Part shown: positions 1 through 62,594 of the stretch, one piece after another
Layout: every line of letters starts with the position of its first letter
Position numbering within the stretch: the stretch's first letter is position 1
NCBI GenBank assembly: GCA_025360785.1
Contig: JANYBN010000187.1
Coordinates: 1 to 64,000, forward strand
DNA from: Geobacter sp.
Lineage (GTDB): Bacteria > Desulfobacterota > Desulfuromonadia > Geobacterales > Pseudopelobacteraceae
DNA: 64,000 nt
Direction: 5' to 3'
Translations under genes and position numbers: made by a program
Notes under the pieces: generated by a model
What the model was told of the DNA's origin: nothing
Databases searched by the model: none
Seen by the model: the letters and a program-made list of their open reading frames with translations, nothing else

Positions 1-413
1 GCGTGATCGGAATCATTAAGCTTAAGGTGCTCGATGATAATAGTGAAAAACTTTACTCCAAGATCACCATGCCGATCAGCGATCTGGGACGGCTCCATCT
101 CAATCACTTCCTGAACGCTGTCGGCCAGCGCCCCAAGAACAATGTTTTCGCCGTCCATTGCCACTTCGACCACGATGATACAGGTATTGACGGTCTGTGC
201 AGTCTCCTGCATGCCGAACTTCAGCCGCAGGTCTATCACCGGCACCACGCAGCCGCGCAGGTTGATAACCCCTCGCATAAAATCAGGCACCTGCGGCACC
301 TTGGTGATGCCCGGCATCTCCAGAATCTCCCGCACCCTGGCAACATCGACGGCAAATACCTCGTCGGCCAGCGTAAAGGTCAAATACTGGGTTGTCTGTA
401 ACTCTTCAGCCAT
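1..413 (-). CDS. cheW: CheW-like chemotaxis coupling protein (partial, 3' end outside window)
   Basis: Translation from ATG at 413 reads MAEELQTTQYLTFTLADEVF and continues with CheW landmarks: a VDVARVREILEMP segment, then GVINLRGCVVPVIDLRLKFG, then an LGALADSVQEVIEME segment. CheW couples chemoreceptors to the CheA kinase at the inner face of the membrane. The gene runs off the left edge, so the last residues are not visible. The visible C-terminal stretch after the EMEPSQI segment does not look like the usual CheW ending, so divergence or a shift there is possible. It is the last visible gene of a minus-strand group with the sigma-54 regulator and FapA-like gene, with 252 bp of upstream spacer carrying repeated GTTACA sites. 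Confidence 0.82.
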   Translation of the reverse strand, partial: MAEELQTTQYLTFTLADEVFAVDVARVREILEMPGITKVPQVPDFMRGVINLRGCVVPVIDLRLKFGMQETAQTVNTCIIVVEVAMDGENIVLGALADSVQEVIEMEPSQIADRHGDLGVKFFTIIIEHLKLNDSDH

Positions 414-573
414 AGTACCCCTCCCCCTGCCTTGATATTAGTTATATGGACAGGAAATCTGTTTACATCAAATGTGCCAAGGAAAGCGGAAAACGCAGCA
501 AGTAAGGGACAAGACTGATTTAATGGAGGATATGGTGCTTAACTGGGGATTAGACGAGAAAGGCGGGACGACA

Positions 574-640
574 ACGGTGTAACTTGATACACTTATTTTA
601 GTTACATGTTACACATCAAGGATACACATTGTTACACCGT
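574..640. promoter_or_regulatory. Cluster of GTTACA half-sites upstream of cheW
   Basis: The 10-mer acggtgtaac (574-583) is repeated as its exact reverse complement gttacaccgt (631-640). Between them lie gttacat (601-607) and gttacac (608-614), so four GTTACA half-sites sit within 67 bp in mixed orientation. The 47-bp loop and lack of a T tract argue against a terminator. It lies about 160 bp upstream of the cheW start and reads as an operator or activator array. No known regulator was recognised. Confidence 0.45.
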
Positions 641-665
641 TTAACATCAAAAGGTCGGAAACCGG

Positions 666-2132
666 CTACTGCTCGATCTTCACCCCTTGCTTCACCACCA
701 TTTTATGTTCCCGGATAAAAGCCTGTTCAATATCGGCGGCTTTAACATCCAGGCTGGTCATTGACAGAAAGCGGAATCCGCCATCGATGCTGTTCTCAAT
801 AACCGTAAGTGGTCCATCCTTTTGCTCATTTATGGTCTCTGTGACGCTGCCAAGCGTCAGCTGGACGTTTTCATACAGCACAGCTTTAGCATTGATCCTG
901 GCGTTGTTTTCATCAGCAACTTTACTCCGAATGGCCATAATGCCGTCAGTCAATGCGGCAGCTGTCTTTCTCAATTCTGAAGCCTCGACCAGCGACTGGG
1001 ACTGTTTGGCTTTGTCCTGAGTTTCAGTCAGTGACGTGAACATTTTTTCCAATAATTCTACATCGTCGTAATCAACACCGGCATGCAGTTTTGTATGCTG
1101 TGATGATGCTGAGCCAAGCTTATTGGCCTCTATGCCGCCTCGCGCAATGTATGAACCTCCGGAAACAGCGCCCTTGTCAACGACAATTTTCCCGAGCGTT
1201 CTGATGGTGCAATTATGAATTTCAACTCCCACAATCACATCACCTGCGCACTCCACGACAACATCGTGAATAAAATTGGCTCGAAGCGTTCCGCCACAGA
1301 CGACAGTGCATTTGTCCTGCCCATCCATGCCGCAGAAGGTGATGTCGCCATCACTGACAATATTGCAAACCCCGATGTTACCGTTAACAGTCAACCCTTT
1401 GGACGCCGTGATATCGAAATTATCCAGAACATCACCACGCACTTCAACGACACCTTTGAAATTGATCGAGCCAACCTTGAAATTAACATCCCCCTTGACA
1501 ACATATTCTTCCTCAACAGAGATTTCGCCGGCAGATTGACAGAAGCGCCCTGTCGCATCGGCAACAAGATGAGCGCCGCCCTCTTCGGCACGGATGTTCT
1601 TGCCGATTTTCACATGCAGTGGCTTACCGGGCTGCGGAGGAATCGGCAGGCCCATGATGTTTTGACCTGGCGTGCCGGATCCGGCCGGAATAATGCGCCC
1701 GATTTCATCGCCGGAGGATACGTTGATAAATGTTTGTACAATATGCATATCAACATTGGTTTCGTCCTCTTCCATTCTATGGACAGCAGATGAAGAGTCC
1801 ACGGATATCGAGATATACTCATCTGCACCGGCAACCGGCGCTGTTCCGGAAGCCAGCAACACATCAACCTGCTGTTGTCCGGCAGCTGCCCTGACCAAAA
1901 AATCATCGAAGGCCTGCTGATCAACCCCATACAGCACGTTGTACTGATTCAGAACGTCAATCAGTTCATCGCGGGTCATCATTGAACCTTGTTCATGCGG
2001 GACATAGCTGCAGAGGCATTCCAGGCGATCGTCCGGAATTCTCAAATACATGCTGTAACCTTGTTTTCTGATTTCCGTCCCGCCAATTACCGGTTCCGCA
2101 GTTGACGACAGCGGTTCATTTTGATCTGTCAT
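666..2132 (-). CDS. FapA/DUF342 family polymer-forming protein
   Basis: This 488-residue protein matches the FapA (DUF342) family. It has an N-terminal alpha/beta part (roughly residues 20-150), then a central repetitive Gly/Val-rich part (about 200-330) with alternating short strands, as in VRGDVLDNFDITASKGLTV, typical of the family's right-handed beta-helix. A charged helical segment follows (about 350-430, likely coiled coil). The family is found in flagellated and signalling-rich bacteria, and its exact role is poorly known. The start at 2132 follows a GAGGG ribosome site. It lies between the sigma-54 regulator and cheW on the same strand, suggesting a link to motility or surface behaviour. 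That role is inference from context. Confidence 0.85.
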   Translation of the reverse strand: MTDQNEPLSSTAEPVIGGTEIRKQGYSMYLRIPDDRLECLCSYVPHEQGSMMTRDELIDVLNQYNVLYGVDQQAFDDFLVRAAAGQQQVDVLLASGTAPVAGADEYISISVDSSSAVHRMEEDETNVDMHIVQTFINVSSGDEIGRIIPAGSGTPGQNIMGLPIPPQPGKPLHVKIGKNIRAEEGGAHLVADATGRFCQSAGEISVEEEYVVKGDVNFKVGSINFKGVVEVRGDVLDNFDITASKGLTVNGNIGVCNIVSDGDITFCGMDGQDKCTVVCGGTLRANFIHDVVVECAGDVIVGVEIHNCTIRTLGKIVVDKGAVSGGSYIARGGIEANKLGSASSQHTKLHAGVDYDDVELLEKMFTSLTETQDKAKQSQSLVEASELRKTAAALTDGIMAIRSKVADENNARINAKAVLYENVQLTLGSVTETINEQKDGPLTVIENSIDGGFRFLSMTSLDVKAADIEQAFIREHKMVVKQGVKIEQ

Positions 2133-2206
2133 GGCATCACCCTCTTAATCGACAACTTCATTCAACAATCGTTCCAGTTTGCGCCCTGTTGAAAGCAATG
2201 TGACTA

Positions 2207-3925
2207 TTATGTCGTTTCCAACTGCCGATAGAGAGTCATGCGGCTGATGCCGAGCAGCCGTGCGGCGCGAGCCTTGTTGCCGTCAGAAGCGGCCAGCGCC
2301 TCTGCAAGAGATAATTTAGCGGCAGGAGCAAATGATGATGGATGTTTTCCAGCAGGTGTTGCTGATGCATGGACACTGTCCAGCAGATCCTTCGGCAGGT
2401 CGCAGACGGTAATTACGGAGGTTTTGCAGATAACACAGGCATGTTCGATGGCATGCTCCAGCTCGCGAACATTGCCGGGCCATCTGTAGGCACGAAAGAG
2501 AATCATGGCATCGTCCGAAACTGCAGTGACCATTTTGGAAAGCTTTACGTTGAACTTGGCAATGAAGTGTGGAACCAGCAATTCAAGATCGTCACTCCGT
2601 TCCCTCAATGGAGGCAGCTCGAGGCGAACCACATTCAGGCGGTAATACAGATCCTGCCTGAAGGTCCCCTGACTGACTTTTTCGGCCAGGCTCTGGTTGG
2701 TGGCGGCAACGATGCGCACATCCACCTTGATCGAATTAGAGTCGCCCACCCGCTCAAATTCACTTTCCTGAAGAACGCGTAAAAGCCGCATCTGGATCGC
2801 CGGAGAGATGTCTCCGATTTCGTCCAGAAAGAGCGTACCGCCATGCGCCTTCTGAAAACGCCCGATTTTATCTGATACAGCTCCGGTAAAAGCACCGCGA
2901 ACATGGCCGAACAGTTCGCTTTCCAGAAGATGCTCCGATAGCGCCGAACAGTTAACCTTCACGAAAGATCCTCCGGAGCGTGCTCCGCCATCATGCAGTG
3001 CCGCCGCGACCAATTCCTTGCCGGTGCCGCTCTCACCGTTGATCAAGACGGTTGTGGGAATATTTGCAAGCGACTCTATCAGTCTGTAAACCCGCTGCAT
3101 CGAATCAGAAACGCCGATTATACCGTGGAATTTCACCCTTTGGTGAAGCGACCGTTCCAACTCTACCAACTTTGTTTCATCATGTATCACAACCACCGCT
3201 CCGCTGACCGTGCCATCCGACTCGGACACCGGCGTTGCCGTCATGCTGACGATGCGTGTTTTTCCGGATGAGTGGTGACACTCGATACGCCGGTGTTCTC
3301 TGGTATAATTGTTGCTGAGCGCCTCCTGCAGGGCACTGCGGCAAACCCCGCGGCATCCCAGACCGATAGCTGTGGCAGCATCTCCGATCATATCATGGCG
3401 GTATCCGCAGATCCGCTCTGCCGTCGTGTTAAACTGCGCCAGCCGCCCATCCTGATCGATCATTACGATACTGTCGGAGACTGTCCGGAAAATGGCATCC
3501 AGATTGGCACGATAACGTTCCCGTTCATCATCCAGCGCCTTACTGCTCAGGGCATGGCGGGTAACCGCAAGCACAGTTTCGAAGCGCATCGGCTTGGTAA
3601 TGTAATCAAATGCGCCCAGGCGCACAGCTTCCGAAGCTGATTCAACCTGCGGATAACCGGTAATCATGACCACCTGCGTAGCCGGCACCGTCTTCTTTAT
3701 TTCACGCAGCAAATCAAGCCCGTTATCACCGGCAAGCATTATGTCGACAAACGCCAGATCAAAACGAAAGTTCCGGATCAATTCCATGGATTCTTCAAAA
3801 CTGCAAGCAGACTCAACCTGATACCCCTCTTTTTTTAGGAGAGTCCCCAATGTAGAGCAGATTCCCTCTTCATCATCAACAAGCAGAATGCGGTGTTGCG
3901 GTCGCTGCATCGGCACAGTTGTCAC
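2207..3925 (-). CDS. Sigma-54-dependent response regulator with PAS domain
   Basis: The 572-residue protein has four parts. A receiver domain (12-125) carries acidic residues DDEE, phospho-acceptor Asp61 and Lys111. A PAS domain spans about 140-250. The AAA+ sigma-54 activation domain (about 265-490) has Walker A GESGTGKE (287-294), the sigma-54 contact motif GAFTGA (334-339) and Walker B LFLDE (355-359). A Fis-type helix-turn-helix is at the end (about 545-572). It is an NtrC-family enhancer-binding protein with an extra PAS sensor between receiver and ATPase. It should activate sigma-54 promoters when phosphorylated. The partner histidine kinase is not in the window. FapA and CheW lie downstream and may be targets, which is inference. 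Confidence 0.93.
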   Translation of the reverse strand: MTTVPMQRPQHRILLVDDEEGICSTLGTLLKKEGYQVESACSFEESMELIRNFRFDLAFVDIMLAGDNGLDLLREIKKTVPATQVVMITGYPQVESASEAVRLGAFDYITKPMRFETVLAVTRHALSSKALDDERERYRANLDAIFRTVSDSIVMIDQDGRLAQFNTTAERICGYRHDMIGDAATAIGLGCRGVCRSALQEALSNNYTREHRRIECHHSSGKTRIVSMTATPVSESDGTVSGAVVVIHDETKLVELERSLHQRVKFHGIIGVSDSMQRVYRLIESLANIPTTVLINGESGTGKELVAAALHDGGARSGGSFVKVNCSALSEHLLESELFGHVRGAFTGAVSDKIGRFQKAHGGTLFLDEIGDISPAIQMRLLRVLQESEFERVGDSNSIKVDVRIVAATNQSLAEKVSQGTFRQDLYYRLNVVRLELPPLRERSDDLELLVPHFIAKFNVKLSKMVTAVSDDAMILFRAYRWPGNVRELEHAIEHACVICKTSVITVCDLPKDLLDSVHASATPAGKHPSSFAPAAKLSLAEALAASDGNKARAARLLGISRMTLYRQLETT

Positions 3926-4048
3926 CTCTTTTGTTGTATTGAAAGCCTTAAAGGGCGCGGCAAGCAGCGCCCCTGCATCGTAACGCTCTTTTATAGTACA
4001 TATTCATTGCTGAGCAAAATGAATTATATTGAAAAAACGGTATCAATA

Positions 4049-4077
4049 TTGACCTGACCTGCAGAGTAAGGTACTTT
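4049..4077 (+). promoter_or_regulatory. Predicted sigma-70 promoter of the dCMP deaminase-rib operon
   Basis: TTGACC (4049-4054), 17 bp, then TACTTT (4072-4077), with the first operon codon at 4114 preceded by GAAGGAAGG. The leader is too short for an FMN riboswitch and none is visible, so this operon does not seem to be controlled by that element here. Prediction by eye only. Confidence 0.45.
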
Positions 4078-4113
4078 ATCTCACATATCAACTGAAGGAA
4101 GGAAGCCCCGCAT

Positions 4114-4581
4114 ATGCAACGCCCATCCTGGGATCAGTATTTCATGGACATTACCCACCTGGTAGCCACCCGTTCCTCCTGTCTGCGGCGGCAGGTCGGG
4201 GCATTGCTGGTCAAGGACCGCAACATACTGGCCACCGGCTACAATGGCGTTCCGTCAGGGATTACCCACTGCGAAGTGGCCGGCTGCCTGCGGGAGCGTC
4301 TCAACGTCCCTTCCGGTGAGCGCCATGAACTCTGCCGGGGACTACATGCCGAGCAGAATGCTATCATACAGGCCGCAAAGCATGGCACCAACATAGACGG
4401 TGCGACCTTGTACTGCACTACCATGCCCTGTATTATCTGCACAAAAATGATTATCAATGCCGGTATTACCACCGTGGTCTATGGCGAAGGGTATGCCGAT
4501 GAACTGGCCCGGGAAATGATCTCTGAAGCGGCCATTGAAGTAGTACAATTTACCCCTGCAAGCCAAGGTGATACACTATGA
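4114..4581 (+). CDS. dCMP deaminase family protein (ComEB-like)
   Basis: This is a 155-residue zinc-dependent deaminase. The catalytic HAE motif is at 78-80 and the PCxxC motif at 105-109. Extra Cys/His residues (Cys53, Cys58, His71, Cys74) match the second zinc site of the dCMP deaminase/ComEB group. The expected reaction is dCMP to dUMP, feeding dTMP synthesis. It opens the operon and overlaps nrdR by 4 bp (ATGA). The order deaminase-nrdR-ribD is the one I know from Geobacter genomes. The ribosome site GAAGGAAGG supports the ATG at 4114. Confidence 0.9.
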
Positions 4582-5030
4582 AATGTCCGTTCTGCGGCAA
4601 TCCCGACAGCAAGGTAATCGATTCCCGCCCTGATAAAGGCGGCACAGCGATCCGCCGCCGCCGTGAATGCGAGGAATGCAGCAAGCGCTTTACTACTCAC
4701 GAGCGGGTGGAAGAGATGTTGCCGCAGGTCTGCAAGAAGGACGGTCGCCGCGAAGCGTTCGATCGCATGAAGATCATTTCCGGCATCAAGAAAGCCTGCG
4801 AAAAGCGCCCCATTCCGGTCGAGGATATCGAGCATATGGTCGATCGGCTGGAAACACGCCTGCAGGAATCGTCTGAGAAAGAAATTTCAACAACCACTAT
4901 AGGCGAATGGATCATGAAGGAGCTGCACGACATGGATGAGGTGGCCTACGTACGCTTCGCCTCGGTCTACCGCTCGTTCCGTGATATCGGTGAATTCATG
5001 CAGGAGCTGCAGGATCTTCTGAAGAAATGA
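4578..5030 (+). CDS. nrdR: Transcriptional repressor NrdR
   Basis: The 150 residues and domain order fit NrdR exactly. An N-terminal zinc ribbon has Cys3, Cys6, Cys31 and Cys34, with the arginine-rich RRRRE stretch before the second Cys pair. An ATP-cone domain follows (about 49-138). NrdR senses dATP/ATP and represses ribonucleotide reductase genes. Its place between a dCMP deaminase and ribD is common. It overlaps both neighbours by 4 bp, so translation is probably coupled. Confidence 0.96.
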
Positions 5031-6133
5031 CCGTCACCGACTCCAAATACATGAAACGTGCCCTGACACTGGCAAAAAAAGGGATCGGCAAGACATACCC
5101 GAACCCTGCAGTAGGGTGCGTAATCGTCAAAAACGGAATGATCATCGGTGAGGGGTGGCACAAAAAGGCGGGCGGACCGCATGCAGAGATTCATGCTCTG
5201 GAAATGGCCGGAAATAGGGCTAACGGTGCGGATGTCTATGTGACGTTGGAGCCATGCAGCCATACCGGCAAGACCCCACCATGTAGTGAAGCGCTGATCC
5301 GTGCCGGAGTCAAGCGGGTTGTCGCCGGGATGAGCGACCCTAATCCACTGGTCAATGGCGGCGGATTGCTCGCTCTGCAACAGGCCGGAATAGAGACTTT
5401 CAGTGGAGTGCTGGAAGAGGAGTGTCGCGCCATCAACAGACCTTTCCTCAAATTCATTGCAACCGGGAAACCGTACGTTACCTATAAATGTGCCATGACT
5501 CTGGACGGCAAGATCGCAAGCGTCACCGGCGATTCCCGCTGGATCAGCTGTGAGGCGTCGCGCAAAATTGTGCACCGGATGCGGGCTGGCAGCAATGCAA
5601 TCATGGTCGGCGTTGACACCATTATTGCCGACAACCCGCTGCTGACCGTGCGGCATGTCAAGGGACGCGATCCGCTGAGAGTCATTGTTGACAGCACCCT
5701 GCGCACCCCGGAGAACGTTGCTGTTTTAAGTGACCTGATGGCCCCGGGGACAGTAATTGCCACCACCGAGACCAACCCGAAAATCCATGCCGGATATTTG
5801 AAAAACGGTGCAAGATTGCTGGTCTGCAATTCAGAAAACGGCAAGGTGGATCTGCGTGATCTCTGGAGTAAACTGGGTAAACTCGGCATTCATTCTCTTC
5901 TGCTGGAGGGTGGGAGCCATCTGGCCGGAGAAGCTCTCAGGCAGGGGTTAATAGATGAATGCGTGTTCTTTTATGCACCCAAGGTTGTCGGCAGTGATGG
6001 ATTATCTCCTTTTGCTATCATCGGCGCCACCGACATGTCTCGTTCAATACCGTTTCGCGATCTCAGCATGCGGCGCGTCGGCACGGATATCATGGTTACC
6101 GCACACCCGGAGAATATATGTTTACTGGACTGA
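5027..6133 (+). CDS. ribD: Bifunctional riboflavin deaminase/reductase RibD
   Basis: This 368-residue protein carries two riboflavin steps. The N-terminal deaminase domain has HAE at 52-54 and zinc-binding Cys77 and Cys86 in the [11 protein letters not shown] motif. A C-terminal NADPH-dependent reductase domain (about 148-365) includes the Gly-rich [14 protein letters not shown] segment. It deaminates and then reduces the pyrimidine intermediate from GTP. It overlaps nrdR by 4 bp and ribE by 16 bp, giving a very compact operon. Confidence 0.96.
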
Positions 6134-52892: not shown

Positions 52893-54149
52893 TTATTTTA
52901 CCACTGACACATCCAGATTTGTTGACTTGAACAAAGTCTGATCACCCATATCGGCCAGATCATTATAGCGGTTCAGATCGTACACAAGACGCGCCTGAAT
53001 CGTATAACTGCCCGGCTTCAGCACAGGAGTCCAGGCCAGTATTCGCTCTTCTCCGGCACGGATAATGTTTTCGTGAGGTCCCTGGGCATCAGCCTGCATC
53101 GCGGCTTTGGCATCAGGCAGTTTTTTGTCTTCCTCAAGAAAGGCTTTGTCATCAGGCCTGGATCCATACCAGGGAGAGAACATCCAACTGTTGCCGGCAA
53201 CGACCTTTCCCTGGGAATCGCGCGCTTCAACCTGGAGATACACCGCACGACGATTGGATCCGGTCGGTACGGAATGACCAGCCCCGATATTGATCACATG
53301 AAATTCGAGTTTAGACACACCTTTATCCGGCTGAACGGCTACCAGATTCAGGGCGTTCTGCAAACGCTGCGATGAGCGCCCTCCGGTCCAGAGATGCCGC
53401 GATGAAACACGATCGGGAACTTTGTAATCTTCAGCCAGCTTGCGATTGGTGCGCGGCATGTGGCAATCCTGACAGTTCTGGCTGCCAAGGCCCTGCTTCC
53501 AGAAATCATCGCGCCATTCAAGGAAAGTCTGGGTTTGTTTACCCGCCACACGTTTCCCCAGGCTGTGGCAGTAAGCGCACATGATCGAGGTTTTCATGCG
53601 AACATCGGGATTGTTTTCATGTGGGGCCCGCAGATTGTACGGACCGCGGATTTTGCCCTCCGGAGTCAGGTGGCAACTGGCGCAGCTCAATCCGGCCGTC
53701 TCTGCATCTTTGGAGCGCGGCTTCGGCTTGAAGATTTCTGACACATTCAAATCGGGAAGGTTAAAGGCTTCCGGGAAATGGCAGACATTGCACGATTTTC
53801 CTTCAACCTCATTTTCACGGGCATGCCGTGGGAATGGGTCGGTGCCGGCCATCGCATGAGCGGTAGTCATGGACGACATGTTTATGGGATGGCTGATATC
53901 CCGCTTGTCGGAAATCACGGCTGCGATATCTTGTATGCGGTTGTCGCCACCGAAACCGAACGCATATTCACGATAAATCGCTTTGTGACACTCTCCGCAC
54001 ACCTCGGATGGTGTCGCCGTCCCCTGGGGAAATTTAACAGTAACGGTCGCGGGTATTGGCTTCAATGGCTCTGCTGCCTGGACAGCGCAAGGTGCCTGTA
54101 CTGCCAGAAACAATGCCGCCAGAAGCAACGTAAGTTTAATCAAATGCAT
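52893..54149 (-). CDS. Periplasmic multiheme cytochrome c (five heme motifs)
   Basis: From ATG 54149 (AAGGAG site) the 418-residue protein has a signal peptide (about 1-26) and five CxxCH motifs: CGECH (51-55), CNVCH (120-124), CASCH (156-160), CAYCH (181-185) and CQDCH (216-220). The arrangement suggests the cytochrome c554 group. After the hemes, a beta-rich C-terminal domain (about 260-415) with HSVPTGSNRRAVYL may be a sensor or partner domain. The role is likely electron transfer. A strong promoter precedes it. Confidence 0.9.
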   Translation of the reverse strand: MHLIKLTLLLAALFLAVQAPCAVQAAEPLKPIPATVTVKFPQGTATPSEVCGECHKAIYREYAFGFGGDNRIQDIAAVISDKRDISHPINMSSMTTAHAMAGTDPFPRHARENEVEGKSCNVCHFPEAFNLPDLNVSEIFKPKPRSKDAETAGLSCASCHLTPEGKIRGPYNLRAPHENNPDVRMKTSIMCAYCHSLGKRVAGKQTQTFLEWRDDFWKQGLGSQNCQDCHMPRTNRKLAEDYKVPDRVSSRHLWTGGRSSQRLQNALNLVAVQPDKGVSKLEFHVINIGAGHSVPTGSNRRAVYLQVEARDSQGKVVAGNSWMFSPWYGSRPDDKAFLEEDKKLPDAKAAMQADAQGPHENIIRAGEERILAWTPVLKPGSYTIQARLVYDLNRYNDLADMGDQTLFKSTNLDVSVVK

Positions 54150-54187
54150 GGAATACTCCTTTCCTGTAAACATAAAAAGCGATTCAC

Positions 54188-54233: not shown

Positions 54234-54902
54234 TCATGGATGCTTTTTATCCCAGTATTCCCTTTCAAAAGGCCAATATTCTTTCATGTAGCCGACTAGA
54301 CCCGACATCCGGGCACTGAAGCCGCTGATAAACTCTTCCTGCTCCGGAAATTTCCGTTGTCCGGCAACAGCCCCGCAGAGCTCACGCCCCAGGTTTTGGG
54401 CTTTTGCATAAAGGTTCGTCTCATCGGGAAAAGTTCTGATCCCGGCCATGGGGGAGCCGATCCCGCCGACCGAGTTTGCGCCGAGAGTGTTCACGAAACG
54501 CCCCATATAGGTAACCACCTCCGCATCCTCGCCACCGCCGGAGGTCTCGACCACGGCCGCATACTTCCCCTCCAGAGCCATGCAGTGGATCAGGCCGTTA
54601 CAGCGGTCAAACAGCGCCTTCATCTGGGCCGTGACGCTGAAGATATAGTTGGGACTGGCGAGGATGAAGCCATCACAGGCAAGCAGCTTTTCCTTGATAC
54701 TCTCATAGTCGTCCTTGATGTTGCAGATGCCGGTCTTGTGGCAGACATCGCAGGCCACACAGGGCTGGACATCCAGCGTTTTCAAGGAGATGATTTCCGT
54801 CTCGGCACCGGTTTCCCTTACTCCGGCCAACACCTCGTCCAGCAGGCGGCCGGTATTTCCCAGCATCCCGCGTGGGCTTCCAATAATGGCGAGTATCTTC
54901 AT
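54234..54902 (-). CDS. Flavodoxin-fold NADPH-dependent FMN reductase
   Basis: The 222-residue protein begins MKILAIIGSPRGMLGNTGRL, the phosphate-binding loop of FMN-reductase-like flavodoxins, and has SPNYIFSVTAQMKALFDR. A CVACDVCHKTGIC motif (about 48-60) adds four Cys, as in the iron-sulfur flavoprotein group. It likely carries FMN and shuttles electrons. It is the last of a minus-strand set with the polyferredoxin and DUF362 genes, just upstream of the cytochrome promoter. Confidence 0.85.
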   Translation of the reverse strand: MKILAIIGSPRGMLGNTGRLLDEVLAGVRETGAETEIISLKTLDVQPCVACDVCHKTGICNIKDDYESIKEKLLACDGFILASPNYIFSVTAQMKALFDRCNGLIHCMALEGKYAAVVETSGGGEDAEVVTYMGRFVNTLGANSVGGIGSPMAGIRTFPDETNLYAKAQNLGRELCGAVAGQRKFPEQEEFISGFSARMSGLVGYMKEYWPFEREYWDKKHP

Positions 54903-54957
54903 CGTCTGTCTCCTTGTTTACTTTCGTTTGTTAGTTAAAATCATCCCTTCATCAAGA

Positions 54958-56508
54958 TCAGGGGTATGGATTTTCAGGCAGGGGCTCCCGCCCGGCCGAC
55001 TGGAGTGCGATCGGGGTCCTGCTCTTCACGGCAAACACCTCGATGCCGACCTTGGTCTCCAGCGGGCAGACATTTTCGCAGATGCCGCAGCCGTTGCAGA
55101 TTTCCTCAACCAGATACGGTTCCTTGACCGTCTTTAGCCGTCCGTCCAGCCCCATGACCTGCACATCACGCGAGCGGATCGCCTTCTCGGGGATCGGGCA
55201 ATGCTCTTCACAGACGATGCAGTCGGTCCTGCGGGCAAACGGCAGACAATGATTCTTGTCGAACACCGCCTTGCCGATCACTTCCCGCCGTTTGGCTTCC
55301 ACCGGCAGGGCCGGGATCGCCCCGGTCGGGCAGACCTGGCCGCAGAGGGTGCAGTTGTACTCGCAATATCCCAGCCGGGGAATGACCAGCGGGGTGTAGA
55401 TTCCCTCCAGACCAGACTGGTATGCTGAAGGATACAGGGCATTCTTCAGGCAGACCTTCATGCACTCGCCGCAGCGGACGCATTTCTCAAGAAAGTCATC
55501 CTCACTCCGGACTCCCGGCGGACGGAGCAGGCGCGACTGTTTTTCAGGATAGCGGAACCGGAGCGGCAGCGCCAACAGCAGCCCGCCTGCAATCCCCCCC
55601 AGAAACACCCGCCGTTCCGGCAGCAGCGAAGCGCTCCACGGCAGCTTCAGTGACGGCCGGAACGACACCCTGCCGTGAGGGCACCCCTCAAGGCACTCCA
55701 TGCAGAGGATACACTCCTCCTTGAGCAGAATCTCGCTGTCGAAGCCGGTCGGACAGAGCTCGCGGCACTTCCCGCAGTCGCCGCACAACGTCGCCGGCGC
55801 CCGCTTGAAGGGGGAAAAACGCCCCAGCCACCCGAGCAGGGTGCCCAACGGGCAGAGGTTCCGGCACCAGTTTCGCGTTTCAAAACGCTCCAGAGCGATG
55901 ATGCCGAGCAGGATGGCCATCGACAGCAGTGACAGCGGGTAGAGTGTATCGCGGAACGGCAGCAGATTGTCACGGATCAGGTTGTATGCGGGCGCCAGCG
56001 TATCACGCCGTTCCCCGATCAGGCGGTACAGCCCGACCCACCCTTCCCTTCCGGCCAGGCCGAGCAGCGGGTAGAACAGGAATGTCAGGGCACGCAGCAG
56101 AATGGCGATCGGGTCGAGCAGGCCACTCAGGTTGAGATTGAACAGCGAGGATCCCAGGAGAGGCAGCAGCAGCCAGTATTTGATGTTCCCCTTGAGAGCC
56201 CTGAGCGGCGCGCTCTTGCGGATCCGCGAGGTCACGAGATCGAGGATGGTTCCGAGCGGACAGATCCAACCGCAGAAAAAGCGCCCCAGCAGCAGCGTCG
56301 CCACGACCATCAGCACGGCCGGAAGCAGGAGCCGGCTCCAGGACTTCGCGGCCAGCAGGTAGCTGAACAGCACCAGCGGATCAACCCTGAAAAAGGCGTT
56401 GACTGCGGCATTGATCTCGTCGCGGCCGCGATATTCGGTCTGCACGAACAAAAACAGGAACAGGGCCAGGAAAAACAGCTGGCAGATGCGGGCCGGGGTG
56501 AATCTCAC
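54958..56508 (-). CDS. Membrane polyferredoxin (4Fe-4S, NapH/YccM-like)
   Basis: The 516-residue protein has about five N-terminal spans with FFCGWICPLGT and the second CRNLCPLGT motif of the NapH-type family. Several [4Fe-4S] sites follow: CGDCGKCRELCP, CILCMECLEGCP, CVRCGECMKVC, CTLCGQVCP, CIVCEEHCP and CNGCGICENVCP. It could carry electrons from membrane quinol through many clusters. It is co-directional with the DUF362 gene (4 bp apart) and the flavodoxin-like gene. The region is visibly more GC-rich than its neighbours. Confidence 0.88.
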   Translation of the reverse strand: MRFTPARICQLFFLALFLFLFVQTEYRGRDEINAAVNAFFRVDPLVLFSYLLAAKSWSRLLLPAVLMVVATLLLGRFFCGWICPLGTILDLVTSRIRKSAPLRALKGNIKYWLLLPLLGSSLFNLNLSGLLDPIAILLRALTFLFYPLLGLAGREGWVGLYRLIGERRDTLAPAYNLIRDNLLPFRDTLYPLSLLSMAILLGIIALERFETRNWCRNLCPLGTLLGWLGRFSPFKRAPATLCGDCGKCRELCPTGFDSEILLKEECILCMECLEGCPHGRVSFRPSLKLPWSASLLPERRVFLGGIAGGLLLALPLRFRYPEKQSRLLRPPGVRSEDDFLEKCVRCGECMKVCLKNALYPSAYQSGLEGIYTPLVIPRLGYCEYNCTLCGQVCPTGAIPALPVEAKRREVIGKAVFDKNHCLPFARRTDCIVCEEHCPIPEKAIRSRDVQVMGLDGRLKTVKEPYLVEEICNGCGICENVCPLETKVGIEVFAVKSRTPIALQSAGREPLPENPYP

Positions 56509-56512
56509 GAAG

Positions 56513-57397
56513 TTACGCCCTCACGATCCTGATTTTATCCAGGTTCATCTCTCCGAGGCCGCGCTTGAAAGCCGCCACCGTCACCGGGATGTCGGCCGGT
56601 TTCATGCCGAACAGCGTGGTGGCAAAGGCGTCGGCGGCAACAATATCGGTCGAGGCAATCACCTTGTTCAGCACCTTGACATCGGCAATATTGCCCCCCT
56701 GCGGCCCATGGGCGGTCAGGATGCGAGTCGCGTCGATGATCGTGAGATGGCTTTTAAGATGCGCGTTGACATCGGCCAGGGCCACATCGATGTTCCTGTG
56801 GATGAAGCCGCGATTCCCTCCCATGACCCCCATGACATTCTTCAATCCGAGGGTCAGTTTGGAAAGCCCGTGGTGTTTGGCGACCGGCACGTTGATATAG
56901 ACATTGGCCGAGAGCGCCTCGTCGTACAGCTCCCACTCCTTCAGGAACTGGCCGTTAAGGGCAAATTTTTTGAACCGTTCCGGCTCGATATGCTTGCACT
57001 CGACCCCCTTGATCCCCTTCATGGCACCCTCGATCCCGCTATTGACATAGCAGCGGCGCGAATCGTTGCAGGTGTTGTCGAACACCTTGACCTTTTTGGC
57101 CCCGGCGGCCAGACACTCCTCAACCACCGCCCGCACTACCAGCGGGTTGGTGTTGGCGGCAAATTCGCTCGCCCGGTCCCACCCCATGTTCGGCTTTACG
57201 ACTACCACGTCCCCCGGCTTGACAAACCTTTTCATACCGCCCACAGCGTTGATGGCCTTGCGGGTAATGGCGGCATGGTCGGCCCCTTCCGCGACCGCGA
57301 CCAGAGACTGTTCGCGAGCAGCAAAAGCTTCCTTTACCAGCGTGGGAGCCAGTAACACAGCGGCTCCAGTGGTTTTTATGAACGTTCGTCTGTCCAT
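56513..57397 (-). CDS. DUF362 family protein with twin-arginine signal
   Basis: The 294-residue protein starts MDRRTFIKTTGAAVLLAP, a twin-arginine (RRTFIK) export signal, so it probably goes to the periplasm folded with a cofactor. The DUF362 domain (about 40-280) shows VVVKPNMGWDRA and the VPVAKHHGLSKLTLGLKNVMG motif. DUF362 proteins often sit next to ferredoxin-like genes. The function is unknown. It leads the polyferredoxin-flavodoxin set behind its own promoter. Confidence 0.85.
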   Translation of the reverse strand: MDRRTFIKTTGAAVLLAPTLVKEAFAAREQSLVAVAEGADHAAITRKAINAVGGMKRFVKPGDVVVVKPNMGWDRASEFAANTNPLVVRAVVEECLAAGAKKVKVFDNTCNDSRRCYVNSGIEGAMKGIKGVECKHIEPERFKKFALNGQFLKEWELYDEALSANVYINVPVAKHHGLSKLTLGLKNVMGVMGGNRGFIHRNIDVALADVNAHLKSHLTIIDATRILTAHGPQGGNIADVKVLNKVIASTDIVAADAFATTLFGMKPADIPVTVAAFKRGLGEMNLDKIRIVRA

Positions 57398-57444: not shown

Positions 57445-57472
57445 ATTGTACGCTTTTGGACGTATTTATCAA
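57445..57472 (-). promoter_or_regulatory. Predicted promoter of the DUF362 gene set
   Basis: On the minus strand TTGATA (57467-57472), 16 bp, TACAAT (57445-57450), about 45 bp ahead of the DUF362 start. Confidence 0.5.
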
Positions 57473-57527: not shown

Positions 57528-58760
57528 TCAAACTATCTTCATGACGATCATGGTTACATCGTCCTCCATGACCGTGGTGCCGCAAAAAGCAGCGACTTCC
57601 ATGAGTATGGCATCGATAATAGACTGGGGTGATCCCGTATGAGTGTCATTAAGAATGCTGCACAGTCTGGAACGACCAAACTGCTCACCAGAACTGTTCA
57701 ATGCCTCGATAATGCCATCGGTGTAAAGAAGGAGCACGTCATCCTTCTGCATTTGAATTTGTTTTTCTTCGTATATCTCATCCTTCCTGACCCCGATGAT
57801 AAGCCCTTCGGCATCCAGTTCCCGGCAGGCTGTCTCGGATTGTCGAAAGAGCAGCGGCGGCACATGCCCGGCGTTGGAATAGGACAGGGTGCGGTTTATC
57901 GCGTCGTATCTGACATAAAACAGGGTAATAAAGAGTTCGGCCTGGTCAAGATCATCGTAGAGGATCCGGTTTAGTGAAGCGAGGATATCTCCGGTGCCGC
58001 TGGATGAGAGAATCTGCGCGCGCAGCACCGACCGGGCTTCAGCCGTCATCAGGGCTGCACCGATGTTATGGCCCGACACATCCGCGACGACCAGATCCAC
58101 TACGCAGTTGTCGTGCTTGTAATAGTCGTAATAGTCGCCCCCGACATGGGTGGCGGGAACGCAGTACCCGGCAAGCTGGATGCCGGGCAGTTCCGGCGGA
58201 GTAGCCGGCAGAAGCGAAAGCTGGATCTGCCGGGCAAGCTCCATGTCCCGCAGCATCCTGGAGTTCTCCAAAAGCGCCTTTTCGGTCCGTTTCCTCTCGG
58301 TGATATCACGGGCAACAGCCACTCCATACAGCTCCTTGTTAAAGGTAACCAGGCGAATGGCGATTTCCGCCGGAATCTCTGCCCCGGAACATTTATACAG
58401 ATGAGTAGTTATCGTATCCCGGTCCTTGCCTTCGGCAAGACCAACTTCGGCAAGTTCCCTGATTCTGGACATGGCCTCCTCCGGGACAAAGTTCCCGAAT
58501 GGAAGAGAAAGGAGATCTTCACGTGAACAACCGAGCTGGCGGCAGGCTGATTCATTGACATCGACAAAGGCAAGGGAAGGGATCCTGACAAGTAATATGC
58601 AATCGTTACTCTGGTCCAAGAGGGACCTGAACCGTTCCAGTTCATCAAGTCTTTGCTGAAGCTCCGGATAATAGGTCTTATGCAGGGAACGCTCCCCCAT
58701 TCCTATGATCTTTTCCCGCTGAGCGCTCCAGTTTTTTTCCTCTTCAGAGGGCTTTTTCAT
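57528..58760 (-). CDS. PAS-SpoIIE (PP2C) phosphatase
   Basis: From ATG 58760 (GAGG site) the 410-residue protein has a coiled segment (about 5-45), a PAS domain (about 45-165) ending in VARDITERKRTEK, and a SpoIIE/PP2C phosphatase domain (about 195-410). The phosphatase has MELARQIQLSLLP, the GGDYYDYY metal site, DVSGHNIGAALM, and LLYTDGIIEA. It removes phosphate from a regulator, often in partner-switch systems. It overlaps the ErcA-like gene by 17 bp, consistent with joint action. Confidence 0.9.
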   Translation of the reverse strand: MKKPSEEEKNWSAQREKIIGMGERSLHKTYYPELQQRLDELERFRSLLDQSNDCILLVRIPSLAFVDVNESACRQLGCSREDLLSLPFGNFVPEEAMSRIRELAEVGLAEGKDRDTITTHLYKCSGAEIPAEIAIRLVTFNKELYGVAVARDITERKRTEKALLENSRMLRDMELARQIQLSLLPATPPELPGIQLAGYCVPATHVGGDYYDYYKHDNCVVDLVVADVSGHNIGAALMTAEARSVLRAQILSSSGTGDILASLNRILYDDLDQAELFITLFYVRYDAINRTLSYSNAGHVPPLLFRQSETACRELDAEGLIIGVRKDEIYEEKQIQMQKDDVLLLYTDGIIEALNSSGEQFGRSRLCSILNDTHTGSPQSIIDAILMEVAAFCGTTVMEDDVTMIVMKIV

Positions 58761-59910
58761 AGATGGCCTCAATATCCTGCCGACTCATCTGTCGCGGGTT
58801 GGTAAAGATGCAGGTATCGTGTATCGCTTTTTCTGCAAGTTCCCGGAGGTCGCCCTTGGTAACCCCCAATCGGCTCAGGGTATCTGTCACACCTGCTGCC
58901 TCGGCCAAATGGAAGAGCGCGGATACGATGGCCGATCTTACCCCGGCAGGCGCCATGCCGTTGATCTCCAGCCCCATTGATTTTCCGATTTCTCCGTAGC
59001 GTTCCGAAACGGCGTTAAAATTGAACTCAATCACGTAAGGAAGCAGGATGGCATTACATTCACCGTGCGGGCAGTCAAGAAGCCCTCCCAGGCTGTGTGC
59101 CATCGCGTGGACCGCCCCCAGACTCGCATTGGAAAAGGCCAGTCCCGCTTCGAGACTGGCCAGCATCATCCTGCCGCGCCGTACAATGTTGTCCGGCTCA
59201 TTGATCGTCGGGATAAGATTTGACATGACGAGGTGTATTGCCTGCAAGGCATGTACATCGGTAATCGGGGAATGGGCCGTGGAGACAAACGCTTCGATGG
59301 CATGGCAGAGTGCATCCATCCCCGTGCAGGCCGTCAGATCCGGGGACATCGTTGTCGTGGTTACCGGATCTATCAGGGCGACATCCGGGACAACCATTTT
59401 GCTGATTATGGCAATTTTAACCTTTTTCAGATTGTCGGTGATGATGGCGAACTGGGAAACATCCGCAGCAGAGCCGGCAGTTGTCGGAACGCAGATCAAA
59501 GGGGGGGTGGTTAATTCCACCTTGTCCACCCCTGCGAACTCAAGGATGTTCATTTTGCCGGAACTGACAATGCCGATCCCTTTGGCACAATCCATAGGAC
59601 TTCCGCCCCCCACCGCGACAATGGCGTTGCAACCTTCGCTCCGGTACAGTTCAGCCCCCGCCATGACTTCTTCTGCCCTGGGATTGCTGCTGACGGCAGA
59701 AAACAGCGTGTAATCCAGATCGGCAGCGTCCAGAGTGGCGATCACATCCTGAGTCCATCCGGCGGCCATCACTCCAGGGTCTGTAACAACCATCACCTTG
59801 CGGGCGCCAAAGTTTTTTGCATAGCGACCGGTCAATTTTCGCGCATCAACACCGAAGATGAACTCGGGAGCAACAAATTTTCGCAACTCAAATTCAGTTG
59901 GTTCTATCAT
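58744..59910 (-). CDS. ercA: Iron-containing alcohol dehydrogenase, ErcA-like
   Basis: The 388-residue protein from ATG 59910 (GGAGGAAGG site) has LRKFVAPEFIFGV at the start, AVGGGSPMDCAKGIGI (NAD-binding), CVPTTAGSAADVSQFAII, and metal ligands around TGMDALCHAIEA and GAVHAMAHSLGG. The sequence is close to ErcA, a regulatory iron-ADH-like protein I recall from Pseudomonas signalling loci, often next to a PAS-containing sensor. The overlap with the PAS-SpoIIE gene fits that pattern. Enzyme activity may or may not be kept. Confidence 0.82.
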   Translation of the reverse strand: MIEPTEFELRKFVAPEFIFGVDARKLTGRYAKNFGARKVMVVTDPGVMAAGWTQDVIATLDAADLDYTLFSAVSSNPRAEEVMAGAELYRSEGCNAIVAVGGGSPMDCAKGIGIVSSGKMNILEFAGVDKVELTTPPLICVPTTAGSAADVSQFAIITDNLKKVKIAIISKMVVPDVALIDPVTTTTMSPDLTACTGMDALCHAIEAFVSTAHSPITDVHALQAIHLVMSNLIPTINEPDNIVRRGRMMLASLEAGLAFSNASLGAVHAMAHSLGGLLDCPHGECNAILLPYVIEFNFNAVSERYGEIGKSMGLEINGMAPAGVRSAIVSALFHLAEAAGVTDTLSRLGVTKGDLRELAEKAIHDTCIFTNPRQMSRQDIEAIYEKAL

Positions 59911-59971
59911 ACGGACCTTCCTCCGCATTGAATGAATTACCAGCAGGTCTGATTATTGAAAAGACTGCACC

Positions 59972-61025: not shown

Positions 61026-61907
61026 TCACCCCACCTGTTCTTCTACAATCACGATTCGCGCAGCCACATCCCGAAAAAACTCCTTCGACCAGATTGCCAG
61101 GACTTGCCGATCCTTCACGAACGGCGCTACATCTTGCCGCGCCTGATCCAGATCCAGACGATCTATGGCATCATTGATCAATTCGTCGAACCTCTCCCGT
61201 GTCAGACGGGCATCACCGCTCCACTGCCCGGTCTGCCGTATCCGCTGTTCCAGGTGATAGAGATTCAACTGCGGATGATGGGCGGCATACCAGACCAGAT
61301 CATACCAGTCGCGCCCCTTGACCCGGTTGTTCCACCTGCGGAAAAGCAGCGCATGCAATTTACCGGCAAACAGGCTGGGGAGCGTGTAACAGCGGACTGC
61401 AAATGGTATCGGTTGTAAAAGATAGCGCGTAGTGGTCACAAAACCGGGCGGCGGATCGGTATCCACCTCTATCTTGATCTTCAGCACCTGTCCCGGCGGA
61501 ATGTTTCGGGCGATGCGCTCGTCAGCCTCGATCACCAACAGCTCGTTGCGGGTATTGGCCTTGAGAAAAGCAGACTGAACCGCGCTTTCCACCGACTTAT
61601 TGACCGATTCCACTCGGAGGTTAAACCCGAAGGCCCGCACCTCTACCTCAAGAGCGGCACTGAACCGCTCCAGGGAAAACTCCGGGTTCGGCTGCAGGAG
61701 GGAAAAGTCCAGATCCTCCGAAAACCGGCCGATACCGTGAAGAATGCGCAGGGCCGTACCGCCGTAAAACGCGGCATGTTCAAAAAACCTGGCGCGCCAC
61801 AGCCCCAGCAGAGCAGTTTCCTGAATAATCTCCCGCAGTGCTCGCACCGTGTCGTCCACGCTTTTGGTGTCGTATTTGGCAAGCATCCGCTCGATGGCAT
61901 CATGCAT
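61026..61907 (-). CDS. AbiEii-like nucleotidyltransferase toxin
   Basis: The 293-residue protein has the nucleotidyltransferase motif GGTALR (49-54) and the metal-binding DLDF (Asp65, Asp67), then KGRDWYDLVWY and a helical C-terminus. This matches the AbiEii toxin family of type IV toxin-antitoxin and phage-abortive systems. Its gene overlaps the antitoxin gene by 8 bp, the usual arrangement. Confidence 0.88.
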   Translation of the reverse strand: MHDAIERMLAKYDTKSVDDTVRALREIIQETALLGLWRARFFEHAAFYGGTALRILHGIGRFSEDLDFSLLQPNPEFSLERFSAALEVEVRAFGFNLRVESVNKSVESAVQSAFLKANTRNELLVIEADERIARNIPPGQVLKIKIEVDTDPPPGFVTTTRYLLQPIPFAVRCYTLPSLFAGKLHALLFRRWNNRVKGRDWYDLVWYAAHHPQLNLYHLEQRIRQTGQWSGDARLTRERFDELINDAIDRLDLDQARQDVAPFVKDRQVLAIWSKEFFRDVAARIVIVEEQVG

Positions 61908-62562
61908 GAGATTTATCCTGTTGAACCGGGTGTAGCCGCCTGATCAGACTGGCCAGCAGCTTCAGGCGTCGCGAGCGATAGGCAGCGGCGATTGCCAGCA
62001 GTCTGTCCGGGTCGAGTAAACTGAGCGCTTCTGTATCAATACGCAGATTATCATTCAGATAGCTCAGAAGACCTTTTTGGGTACTGACACCAATCCCCCG
62101 TTCCATCATGACTCGGTCGGCCAGCGCCTTTTCCGGTATAGCCATCAGGAAAGAACGCCCATCGGCCAACTCGATCCGGTCAATGCCGATGCTGAAAGCA
62201 GCCATCGGGATCATCCGGTAACTGAAACAGCCTACCGGCGTTTCGAAACTACGCGAGCGGCCGCAGGTCACCGAAGTGATGGTCTCGACCCGTTCCGGCG
62301 TCAGGCCATGATAATGCAGGGCATATTCAAGAGAGATGCAGGATGGGCCGCAGATGAGGTTGGCAAGAAGTTCCCGGCAGTAGGGGGAGCGACGCTGTCC
62401 TTCGCCGAACAGGTAAAGTCCCTTTTTGACCCGGATGATCTCTCCTTTGCGCAACAGAGAGGTGATCTTTTTGCGCGGGTAGGCATACGTCCGCAACGAG
62501 TCCAGCAGGGACTGGTAGTCAAATTCCTCAAACGGTATGGTCTGCCGCAGTTGTTCGTACAT
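61900..62562 (-). CDS. AbiEi-like antitoxin/regulator
   Basis: The 220-residue protein has an N-terminal winged-helix part (about 10-55, with ITSLLRKGEIIRVKKGLYLFG) and a C-terminal domain with LLANLICGPSCISLEYALHYHG and TPVGCFSYRMIP, as in AbiEi antitoxins that bind promoter repeats. ATG 62562 is used; an in-frame GTG at 62571 is the alternative. Its promoter region carries a perfect 15-bp inverted repeat, probably its own operator. Confidence 0.82.
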   Translation of the reverse strand: MYEQLRQTIPFEEFDYQSLLDSLRTYAYPRKKITSLLRKGEIIRVKKGLYLFGEGQRRSPYCRELLANLICGPSCISLEYALHYHGLTPERVETITSVTCGRSRSFETPVGCFSYRMIPMAAFSIGIDRIELADGRSFLMAIPEKALADRVMMERGIGVSTQKGLLSYLNDNLRIDTEALSLLDPDRLLAIAAAYRSRRLKLLASLIRRLHPVQQDKSHA

Positions 62563-62594
62563 GATAGCCACTTGCCTCGTGAGGATAAAATACC

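Follow-up and report, generated by a model that had tools for sequence, protein, structure and literature searches.

The window, a 64,000-nucleotide stretch of Geobacter DNA, contains a conserved unit of two genes, one for a Tat-exported DUF362 protein and one for a NapH-Tat-NapG polyferredoxin, and the predicted fold of the DUF362 protein is that of the N-domain of lactate racemase (LarA). We propose, with a confidence that falls just short of even, that these genes encode a redox module in which the exported DUF362 protein carries the nickel-pincer nucleotide (NPN), or a cofactor very like it, and the polyferredoxin acts as a quinone-linked wire. The DUF362 protein would then act in the periplasm as an oxidoreductase of the NPN type, connected to the quinone pool. 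The pairing, the co-occurrence, the predicted fold, the residue correspondence, the Tat motifs and the cluster sites were established by computation. The original prediction for this region did not include the LarA fold and the NPN-site residues of the DUF362 protein, which are the more telling feature. The features are as follows.

56513..57397, minus strand: DUF362 protein, 294 aa, predicted to be Tat-exported, with the predicted LarA N-domain fold (PF04015, E 2.6e-47)
57311..57397, minus strand: Tat signal of the DUF362 protein, residues 1-29, MDRRTFIKTTGAA... (TAT_signal E 0.0074, below the cut-off; R3, R4 and F6 of the N-terminal RRxF invariant in 61/61 aligned sequences)
56798..56878, minus strand: DUF362 codons K174, H176, K186, N187 and H200 (invariant in 61/61 aligned sequences)
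54958..56508, minus strand: membrane polyferredoxin, NapH-Tat-NapG fusion, 516 aa, seven predicted [4Fe-4S] sites
55609..55614, minus strand: internal twin arginine R299-R300 of the polyferredoxin, ahead of its last hydrophobic helix
54234..54902, minus strand: FMN-reductase-family (flavodoxin-fold) protein (PF03358, E 4.9e-28), a neighbour outside the conserved unit
52893..54173, minus strand: cytochrome with five CXXCH motifs, a neighbour outside the conserved unit
57445..57472, minus strand: weak promoter-like site 5' of the DUF362 gene (10/12 matches)

The polyferredoxin gene starts with GTG, 4 bases past the DUF362 stop codon, and gaps of 55 and 60 bases separate it from the FMN-reductase gene and the latter from the cytochrome gene (84 bases for the last gap if a later cytochrome ATG is used). 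As originally described, the first three genes are adjacent and co-directional, running on the minus strand from 57397 down to 54234. The region contains five promoter-like sites (2.9 expected from shuffles).

This arrangement had been read as a new electron-transfer route, which as a four-gene extracellular system would comprise a flavodoxin, the polyferredoxin, the DUF362 protein and the cytochrome. Besides the short gaps, the terminator-like sites are compatible with such a route, since all those found on the minus strand are intragenic and the total on both strands is close to that in shuffles (7 against 5.2). However, the set is not conserved. Polyferredoxin loci were collected from genome_contigs as the best 80 of 566; among these, an FMN-reductase gene lies immediately 3' of the pair in only 1/68 loci (L070), and the five-CXXCH cytochrome was found in 0/59 (both by tblastn at E 1e-8). 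We therefore rejected a conserved four-gene system, and consider the four-gene route very improbable. The part of the claim that stands is that a membrane protein with many iron-sulfur clusters beside a Tat-exported protein points to electron transfer between quinone and periplasm. One further partial FMN-reductase match was distant and on the opposite strand. The protein labelled flavodoxin is a flavodoxin-fold member of the NADPH-dependent FMN reductases (PF03358); it has Cys at positions 48/51/54/60, a spacing known from iron-sulfur flavoproteins.

The gene set had also been described as GC-rich. This is strongly so for the pair, the GC content of which (60.9%) is 3.0 sd above the mean of 50.0 (sd 3.6) for segments of 2440 bases from the same 64-kb stretch, only weakly so for the FMN-reductase gene and hardly so for the cytochrome gene. 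The individual values are 58.3% (DUF362), 62.3% (polyferredoxin), 56.1% (FMN-reductase) and 52.8% (cytochrome) against 50.1% for the window, and GC3 is 75 and 80% in the DUF362 and polyferredoxin genes and 70% in the FMN-reductase gene. A foreign origin was rejected as the explanation because orthologues show the same excess: the polyferredoxin gene is richer in GC than its own flanks in 65 of the 68 loci for which 5 kb or more of flank is available, and the pair occurs in 82/117 Geobacterales genomes.

The two genes are almost always found together. Among the 117 Geobacterales genomes, 82 contain both, 3 the polyferredoxin alone, none the DUF362 gene alone, and 32 neither. Five of the 82 genomes retain both genes in unlinked form, either on different contigs (three genomes) or 8.7 kb or 1.1 Mb apart; breaks in draft assemblies could also explain the different contigs. 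Among the best 80 of 566 polyferredoxin loci, 71 have sufficient upstream DNA; a DUF362 gene is present in 68 of these, and in 60 it lies at most 300 bases upstream, including records from Acidobacteriota, Nitrospirae, Phycisphaerales and CSSED10-310.

Beyond the two genes, no cluster of neighbours occurs in more than 12/80 loci, again among the best 80 of 566. Genes for CbiX, tetrapyrrole methylase, NosD/OpuAC, Nramp and nitroreductase each lie near the pair in a few loci, and deduction of the substrate from neighbours was rejected because no neighbour is conserved across loci. The lack of a stable operon partner that betrays a substrate favours an alternative in which the DUF362 protein helps to mature or repair cytochromes or metalloenzymes in the periplasm, with reductant supplied by the polyferredoxin; CcoG- and NosR-like accessory systems are parallels. 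An Nramp-type gene directly after the DUF362 gene in L058, L071 and L078 (one cluster, with the Pfam assignment from L058) agrees with this. We nevertheless regard it as improbable, since the LarA-type active-site residues described below are invariant and look catalytic; as a weaker point, the pair is absent from some genomes of the same genus, which manage without it.

The polyferredoxin matches the NapH profile best over residues 7-145 and the NapG profile over 314-493, although it misses the NCBIfam equivalog cut-offs of both (87.7/234 and 82.9/269 bits, respectively). In 58/58 aligned orthologues 28 Cys are invariant, 12 before the twin arginine and 16 after it, and so the protein has room for seven [4Fe-4S] clusters, three of which are predicted to lie inside and four outside. 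The twin arginine is present in 56/58 polyferredoxins (R300 invariant and R299 at least 90% conserved in the A2 alignment), and the predicted model (pLDDT 81.8) has a hydrophobic helix at 299-317. A search of the PDB with this model found no solved-structure relatives at E 0.001.

By its predicted features, the polyferredoxin fits the known family of Sec/Tat dual-targeted proteins represented by PFD (Q1NSB0) of delta proteobacterium MLMS-1 (Tooke et al. 2017, PMC5449189). PFD is likewise a NapH-NapG fusion with a twin arginine ahead of TMD5; three of its cluster sites are cytoplasmic and four lie on the outer side, and Tat-dependent translocation of its outer half was shown with reporter fusions in E. 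coli. The window polyferredoxin differs from PFD in having a near-constant DUF362 partner, in a comparison of described features; the main text of PMC5449189 contains neither the term DUF362 nor the term Geobacter. The quinol dehydrogenase NapGH has the same domain make-up but is not fused. By analogy with NapGH, we infer that the polyferredoxin contacts quinone.

The DUF362 protein passes the Pfam gathering score of PF04015 by a wide range (161.9 bits vs 24), and its predicted model has a pLDDT of 92.3. When compared with solved structures, the model matches eleven LarA-type entries with Z 16.9-19.2 (15.9-19.2 with 4nar included), overlaying on these at 2.6-3.4 A over 199-213 residues; the best match has Z 19.2 at 2.6 A over 205 residues. 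The next structure has Z 5.8, and unrelated chains stay below 6. Residues 37..267 of the model pair with 35..270 of LarA1 (5huq), which fits the placement of H176, K186 and H200 on H174, K184 and H200 of LarA; all three are invariant in 61/61 sequences. In LarA, H174 is catalytic, K184 is the NPN lysine and H200 is a Ni ligand, according to PMC11770544. LarA homologues loaded with NPN are reported to show bands at 420/550 nm (PMC12611868). H176 and K186 were aligned with their LarA counterparts in two separate alignments, whereas H200 is two residues closer to the Lys than in LarA, so that its alignment needs a gap. The pattern K-x-H-x9-K-N followed by a His 13-16 residues past that K occurs in 47/47 sampled DUF362 proteins, and H-x9-K-x15-H in 38/38 LarA.

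Sequence also links the two families. The paralogue L114 from the same genome matches the Pfam Lar_N profile under the cut-off (E 1.3e-4, residues 136-185), over a stretch that contains H156, K166 and H182 in exact LarA spacing, and the genome's own LarA (L131) matches the DUF362 profile, also under the cut-off (E 0.0032). Profile-profile comparison of DUF362 and LarA is weak alone: one run aligned only residues 37-68 (probability 17%), and a run with cropped profiles aligned the active-site stretch (probability 3%, E 0.013), placing H200 two residues before its LarA counterpart. The global alignment of uncropped profiles was discarded as its pairing is meaningless, and the active-site register comes from cropped profiles only. 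Three PDB matches by sequence at E 0.11 were judged to be chance.

R75, which binds phosphate in LarA, is aligned with W73, and an Arg lies two residues further (R75 in WDR) in 58/61 sequences. Other parts of LarA are not retained. Its second catalytic His, His108, has no counterpart, as the stretch between residues 42 and 135 of the window protein contains no His. Neither the LarA C-terminal domain PF21113, for which the genome's own LarA is positive, nor the Lar_N profile matches the window protein at E up to 10. Selenocysteine was considered because the match in G089 contains a TGA and those in G062 and L061 are truncated, but it was rejected: in G062 the frame changes near residue 132, residues 165-264 are missing from the match in G089, and L061 has an inserted open frame that resembles an IS200-type transposase.

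One alternative keeps the two-gene redox module but assumes that the DUF362 protein has lost NPN; its old pocket would then serve a different cofactor or metal, or the protein would bind the substrate itself, with electrons coming from the polyferredoxin. The pairing and co-occurrence do not require NPN, R75 and H108 of LarA are not strictly retained, and Cys110 and Cys116, at least 90% conserved within the exported clade, might bind something else. On the other hand, every one of the 47 sampled proteins has the Lys that tethers NPN, one catalytic His and a His near the nickel-ligand place, and in genomes without LarA the presence of LarC follows that of DUF362, albeit with exceptions. We consider loss of NPN unlikely, though of appreciable weight.

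LarB, LarC and LarE are all present in the genome itself, as is LarA. Among LarA-less genomes of the order, LarC is found in 20/20 with the polyferredoxin and 6/9 without it (p 0.023); in the phylum, it is found in 44/49 with any DUF362 and 6/14 without (p 5.9e-4), or 30/33 and 3/6 when counted by family (p 0.036). However, LarC is so common (125/148 and 111/117) that the test has little power. For the strict DUF362 clade, LarC is found in 12/13 LarA-less genomes of the phylum with it vs 38/50 without (p 0.27). In a further table of the strict clade against LarC, from which low-completeness genomes were removed by a hand-made, partial list, the counts are 30/31 vs 83/97 (p 0.12), significance being lost.

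There are exceptions in both directions. Five LarA-less genomes have DUF362 and no LarC (G138, with a strict-clade DUF362, and G148, G164, G192 and G237), and six, in families f22, f39 and f51, have LarC and no DUF362; looser DUF362 relatives occur in seven LarC-less genomes, all with LarA. Among the controls, LarB/LarC occur in M. jannaschii and C. glutamicum with neither DUF362 nor LarA, B. ihuae has DUF362 and no LarC, and the H. volcanii DUF362 was above the cut-off in one search and not listed at E 1e-10 in another. In neither G000 nor G008 do contig positions show linkage between lar and DUF362 genes. With these exceptions, the co-occurrence supports the NPN reading.

According to PMC11796402, about 15% of analysed genomes have larB, larE and larC without larA, in E. 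coli the Synechocystis LarB, LarE and LarC together sustain lactate racemase activity, and for most cyanobacteria the NPN-using protein still awaits identification. The same source expects that protein to have a fold unlike LarA, which counts against the DUF362 reading. In Synechococcus elongatus, DUF362, LarB and LarC are present and LarA has no match. The only DUF362-LarA link found in the open-licence literature consulted is the use of DUF362 as an outgroup and clan mate (PMC11770544); a link may exist elsewhere.

In the proposed NPN-type module, the DUF362 protein would fold and acquire its cofactor in the cytoplasm and then exit via Tat. Because the cofactor half of the LarA-type active site is kept, the cofactor would most likely be NPN or something close to it, and Lys186 and His200 would hold it. 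Since a single catalytic His (His176) is present and the LarA C-terminal domain is missing, the protein would be expected to perform net hydride or electron transfer instead of racemisation. The polyferredoxin would sit in the inner membrane, three cluster sites on the inner side and four on the outer, and would relay electrons between the menaquinone pool and the DUF362 protein. NPN binding, contact between the two proteins and the quinone link are what we infer here.

Compared with LarA and other NPN racemases (PF09861; PDB 5huq, 9eid, 6d6z), the DUF362 protein has the predicted N-domain fold in common, and its Lys, one catalytic His and the Ni-ligand His fall in register, but it lacks the LarA_C domain and the second catalytic His, is predicted to be exported and has a ferredoxin-chain partner; racemase activity is not expected. 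The soluble DUF362-ferredoxin paralogues of the genome (L112, L113 and L114) likewise have K-x-H, KN and His in the DUF362 domain, but have ferredoxin motifs fused or inserted in cis and no N-terminal twin arginine. Two such Fe-S motifs in cis were found in 31/31 other sampled DUF362 proteins and in 0/61 of the exported clade, which has a polyferredoxin in trans instead. More generally, and with rather less than even confidence, DUF362 proteins may be the non-LarA users of NPN. They would form a second branch of the LarA fold, one for redox chemistry, whose C-terminal racemase domain has given way to a ferredoxin module, either in cis in the cytoplasm or, through a Sec/Tat polyferredoxin, in trans in the periplasm of anaerobes.

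The predicted LarA N-domain fold, the NPN lysine, the His at the nickel place and the presence in LarA-less Synechococcus elongatus make DUF362 a concrete candidate for the NPN-using protein of NPN makers without LarA. If this is true, NPN would be a respiratory cofactor too, beyond racemases, a nickel organometallic cofactor would join anaerobic respiration, and a very common gene pair of Geobacterales and other anaerobes would gain a specific, testable function.

The genes considered here lie on the minus strand of the window, in a source genome of 3.9 Mb distributed over 229 contigs:

57397-56513, minus strand, DUF362 protein
56508-54958, minus strand, membrane polyferredoxin
54902-54234, minus strand, FMN-reductase-family protein
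54173-52893, minus strand, cytochrome with five CXXCH motifs

To delimit the conserved unit, the window polyferredoxin was used as a query against genome_contigs, and the best 80 of 566 confirmed places were retained. The nearest polyferredoxins among these belong to records labelled Geobacter sp., Deltaproteobacteria, Desulfuromonadaceae and similar; Syntrophus, Desulfobulbaceae, Desulfobacterales, Acidobacteriota, Nitrospirae, CSSED10-310 and Phycisphaerales also appear as record names in the same 80 loci. When at least 1200 bases were available upstream, DUF362 was present in 68 of 71 loci (not found at L043, L105 and L111), and in 60 of these 68 it lies on the same strand within 300 bases upstream. 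Downstream, tblastn (E 1e-8) gave an FMN-reductase match in 2 of the 68 loci that extend for 1500 bases or more, directly after the polyferredoxin at L070 and as a partial, distant, opposite-strand match at L099, and the five-CXXCH cytochrome in none of 59 loci with 4000 bases. The original prediction of a redox module is real for DUF362 and the polyferredoxin, but its border, which took in the FMN-reductase-family gene (as a flavodoxin) and the cytochrome, was too wide.

The pairing also holds across the order Geobacterales (117 genomes; DUF362 threshold E 1e-60): the polyferredoxin occurs in 85 genomes and DUF362 in 82, all of which have both genes. The three genomes with the polyferredoxin alone are G110, where the contig ends within DUF362, whose tail is visible (L019); G068, where a contig end intervenes; and G031, which is 81% complete and lacks DUF362 in the accessible 1 kb. 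The spacing is at most 60 bases in 58 of the 82 pairs, 61-300 in 6 and 301-6000 in 13, and the genes are 8.7 kb apart in G021, 1.1 Mb apart in G006, and on separate contigs in G003, G007 and G040, possibly through draft breaks. That both genes are retained even when separated speaks for a shared function.

Several loci deviate in layout. In L058:1289-3444, L071:37-1942 and L078:1529-3686, the gene that begins 16-22 bases after DUF362 is of the Nramp metal-transporter type (on Pfam evidence from the L058 copy), and the polyferredoxin gene is 3.6-5.3 kb from DUF362. A ferredoxin-nitroreductase fusion gene lies between the pair at L046:5047-5871, and L068:5060-5941 is an open frame similar in size and place. 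At L061:4943-5956, DUF362 is broken by an inserted frame, which we take to resemble an IS200-type transposase. A shared gene cluster precedes the pair in L069, L103 and L109, and the L109 copy contains NosD/beta-helix and OpuAC-type genes. Immediately upstream in the window (57528-59928, minus strand), a PAS-SpoIIE phosphatase gene overlaps a gene for an ErcA-type alcohol dehydrogenase, and L060 has an ErcA relative followed by a protein similar to the PAS part. Two overlapping genes at 61026-62571, minus strand, presumably resemble an AbiEii/AbiEi-type toxin-antitoxin pair.

The first part of the polyferredoxin matches NapH and the last part NapG, with scores far below the equivalog cut-offs. 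All 58 aligned sequences share 28 invariant Cys residues, a predicted capacity for seven [4Fe-4S] clusters. An internal twin arginine, which starts the last predicted hydrophobic helix, divides them into 12 on its N-terminal and 16 on its C-terminal side. The same make-up is found in the PFD family, which, as Tooke et al. established, requires Sec and Tat together (PMC5449189); a term search of the main text of that paper returned neither DUF362 nor Geobacter.

The relation of DUF362 to lactate racemase (LarA) is an addition to the first reading, which had missed it. All 61 aligned proteins of the exported clade carry an N-terminal RRxF. The structure is predicted with confidence (pLDDT 92.3). 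Of the 19 Foldseek matches to it at E <0.001, all but one were chains of lactate/malate racemases or LarA-like proteins (18), the exception being 4nar, a Thermotoga protein without a name; VIA-align placed eleven LarA-type entries at Z 16.9-19.2 and 4nar at 15.9, followed by a methyltransferase at Z 5.8. PMC11770544 places DUF362 and DUF2088 (LarA) in the same Pfam clan and states that, in LarA1, K184 holds the nickel-pincer nucleotide (NPN), R75 holds its phosphate, H200 ligates nickel, and H108 and H174 are catalytic. In DUF362, H176, K186 and H200 are invariant; the H-K spacing of 10 is that of LarA, and H200 is closer by two residues. The structural pairing runs over residues 37-267 of the model and 35-270 of LarA1 (5huq), which, as far as the model goes, fits this register.

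The profile search gave no Lar_N match for the window protein. An ungapped 54-column profile alignment, weak alone (E 0.013, probability 3%), brings H176 and K186 into line with their LarA counterparts. By its sequence, the own-genome paralogue L114 (G000:C200:7226-8041), which has an inserted ferredoxin and matches both DUF362 and Lar_N, is a bridge between the families and stronger evidence than this alignment: it scores 21.7 bits against Lar_N, just below the 23.3 cut-off (E 1.3e-4, residues 136-185), and the stretch contains H156, K166 and H182 at exact LarA spacing. From the other side of the bridge, the own LarA matches the DUF362 profile at E 0.0032 (18 bits, below the 24 cut-off). DUF362 has no counterpart to LarA His108 or to the LarA C-terminal domain; PMC12611868 describes LarA homologues that have only one catalytic His, the second being replaced by Asn.

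The other DUF362 proteins that could be extracted number 31: three paralogues from the source genome and 28 proteins from 29 new loci, the loci being chosen by best score and not at random. All 31 have two CxxCxxCxxxC motifs, whereas none of the 61 exported-clade proteins has them; L114 carries its ferredoxin inside the DUF362 domain. On these counts, a ferredoxin appears to occupy the place of the LarA second domain, within the same chain (in cis) in the other DUF362 proteins and as a separate protein (in trans) in the exported clade.

The source genome holds LarA and the NPN biosynthesis genes LarB, LarC and LarE; in the order, LarC is found in 111 genomes, LarB above cut-off in 110 and LarA in 88. 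Among the 29 LarA-less genomes of the order, LarC is present in 20/20 with the polyferredoxin and 6/9 without (p 0.023). In the phylum sample (148 genomes; strict clade defined by our own cut of >350 bits), LarC occurs in 33/34 genomes with the strict clade and 92/114 without (p 0.028); in LarA-less genomes, the figures are 12/13 and 38/50 (p 0.27) for the strict clade, and 44/49 and 6/14 (p 5.9e-4) for any DUF362, or 30/33 and 3/6 (p 0.036) when counted by family. Except for the family count, these values ignore kinship; several tables were tried, and exceptions exist. The size of the detection error can be read from LarA itself, which occurs in 85 genomes, 10 of them with no LarC detected.

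Export in the folded state is the usual reason for using Tat, and DUF362 would receive its cofactor in the cytoplasm and then leave folded. With a single catalytic His, and a site left open where the second domain of LarA would sit, it would be expected to hand hydride or electrons onward rather than give them back. Its natural partner would be the four predicted outer cluster sites of the polyferredoxin, which, by analogy with NapGH, may lead to menaquinone. That this cofactor is NPN stands as a strong hypothesis, distinct from a result, and is cheap to test; the components of the module have ordinary names, and their implications are unusual.
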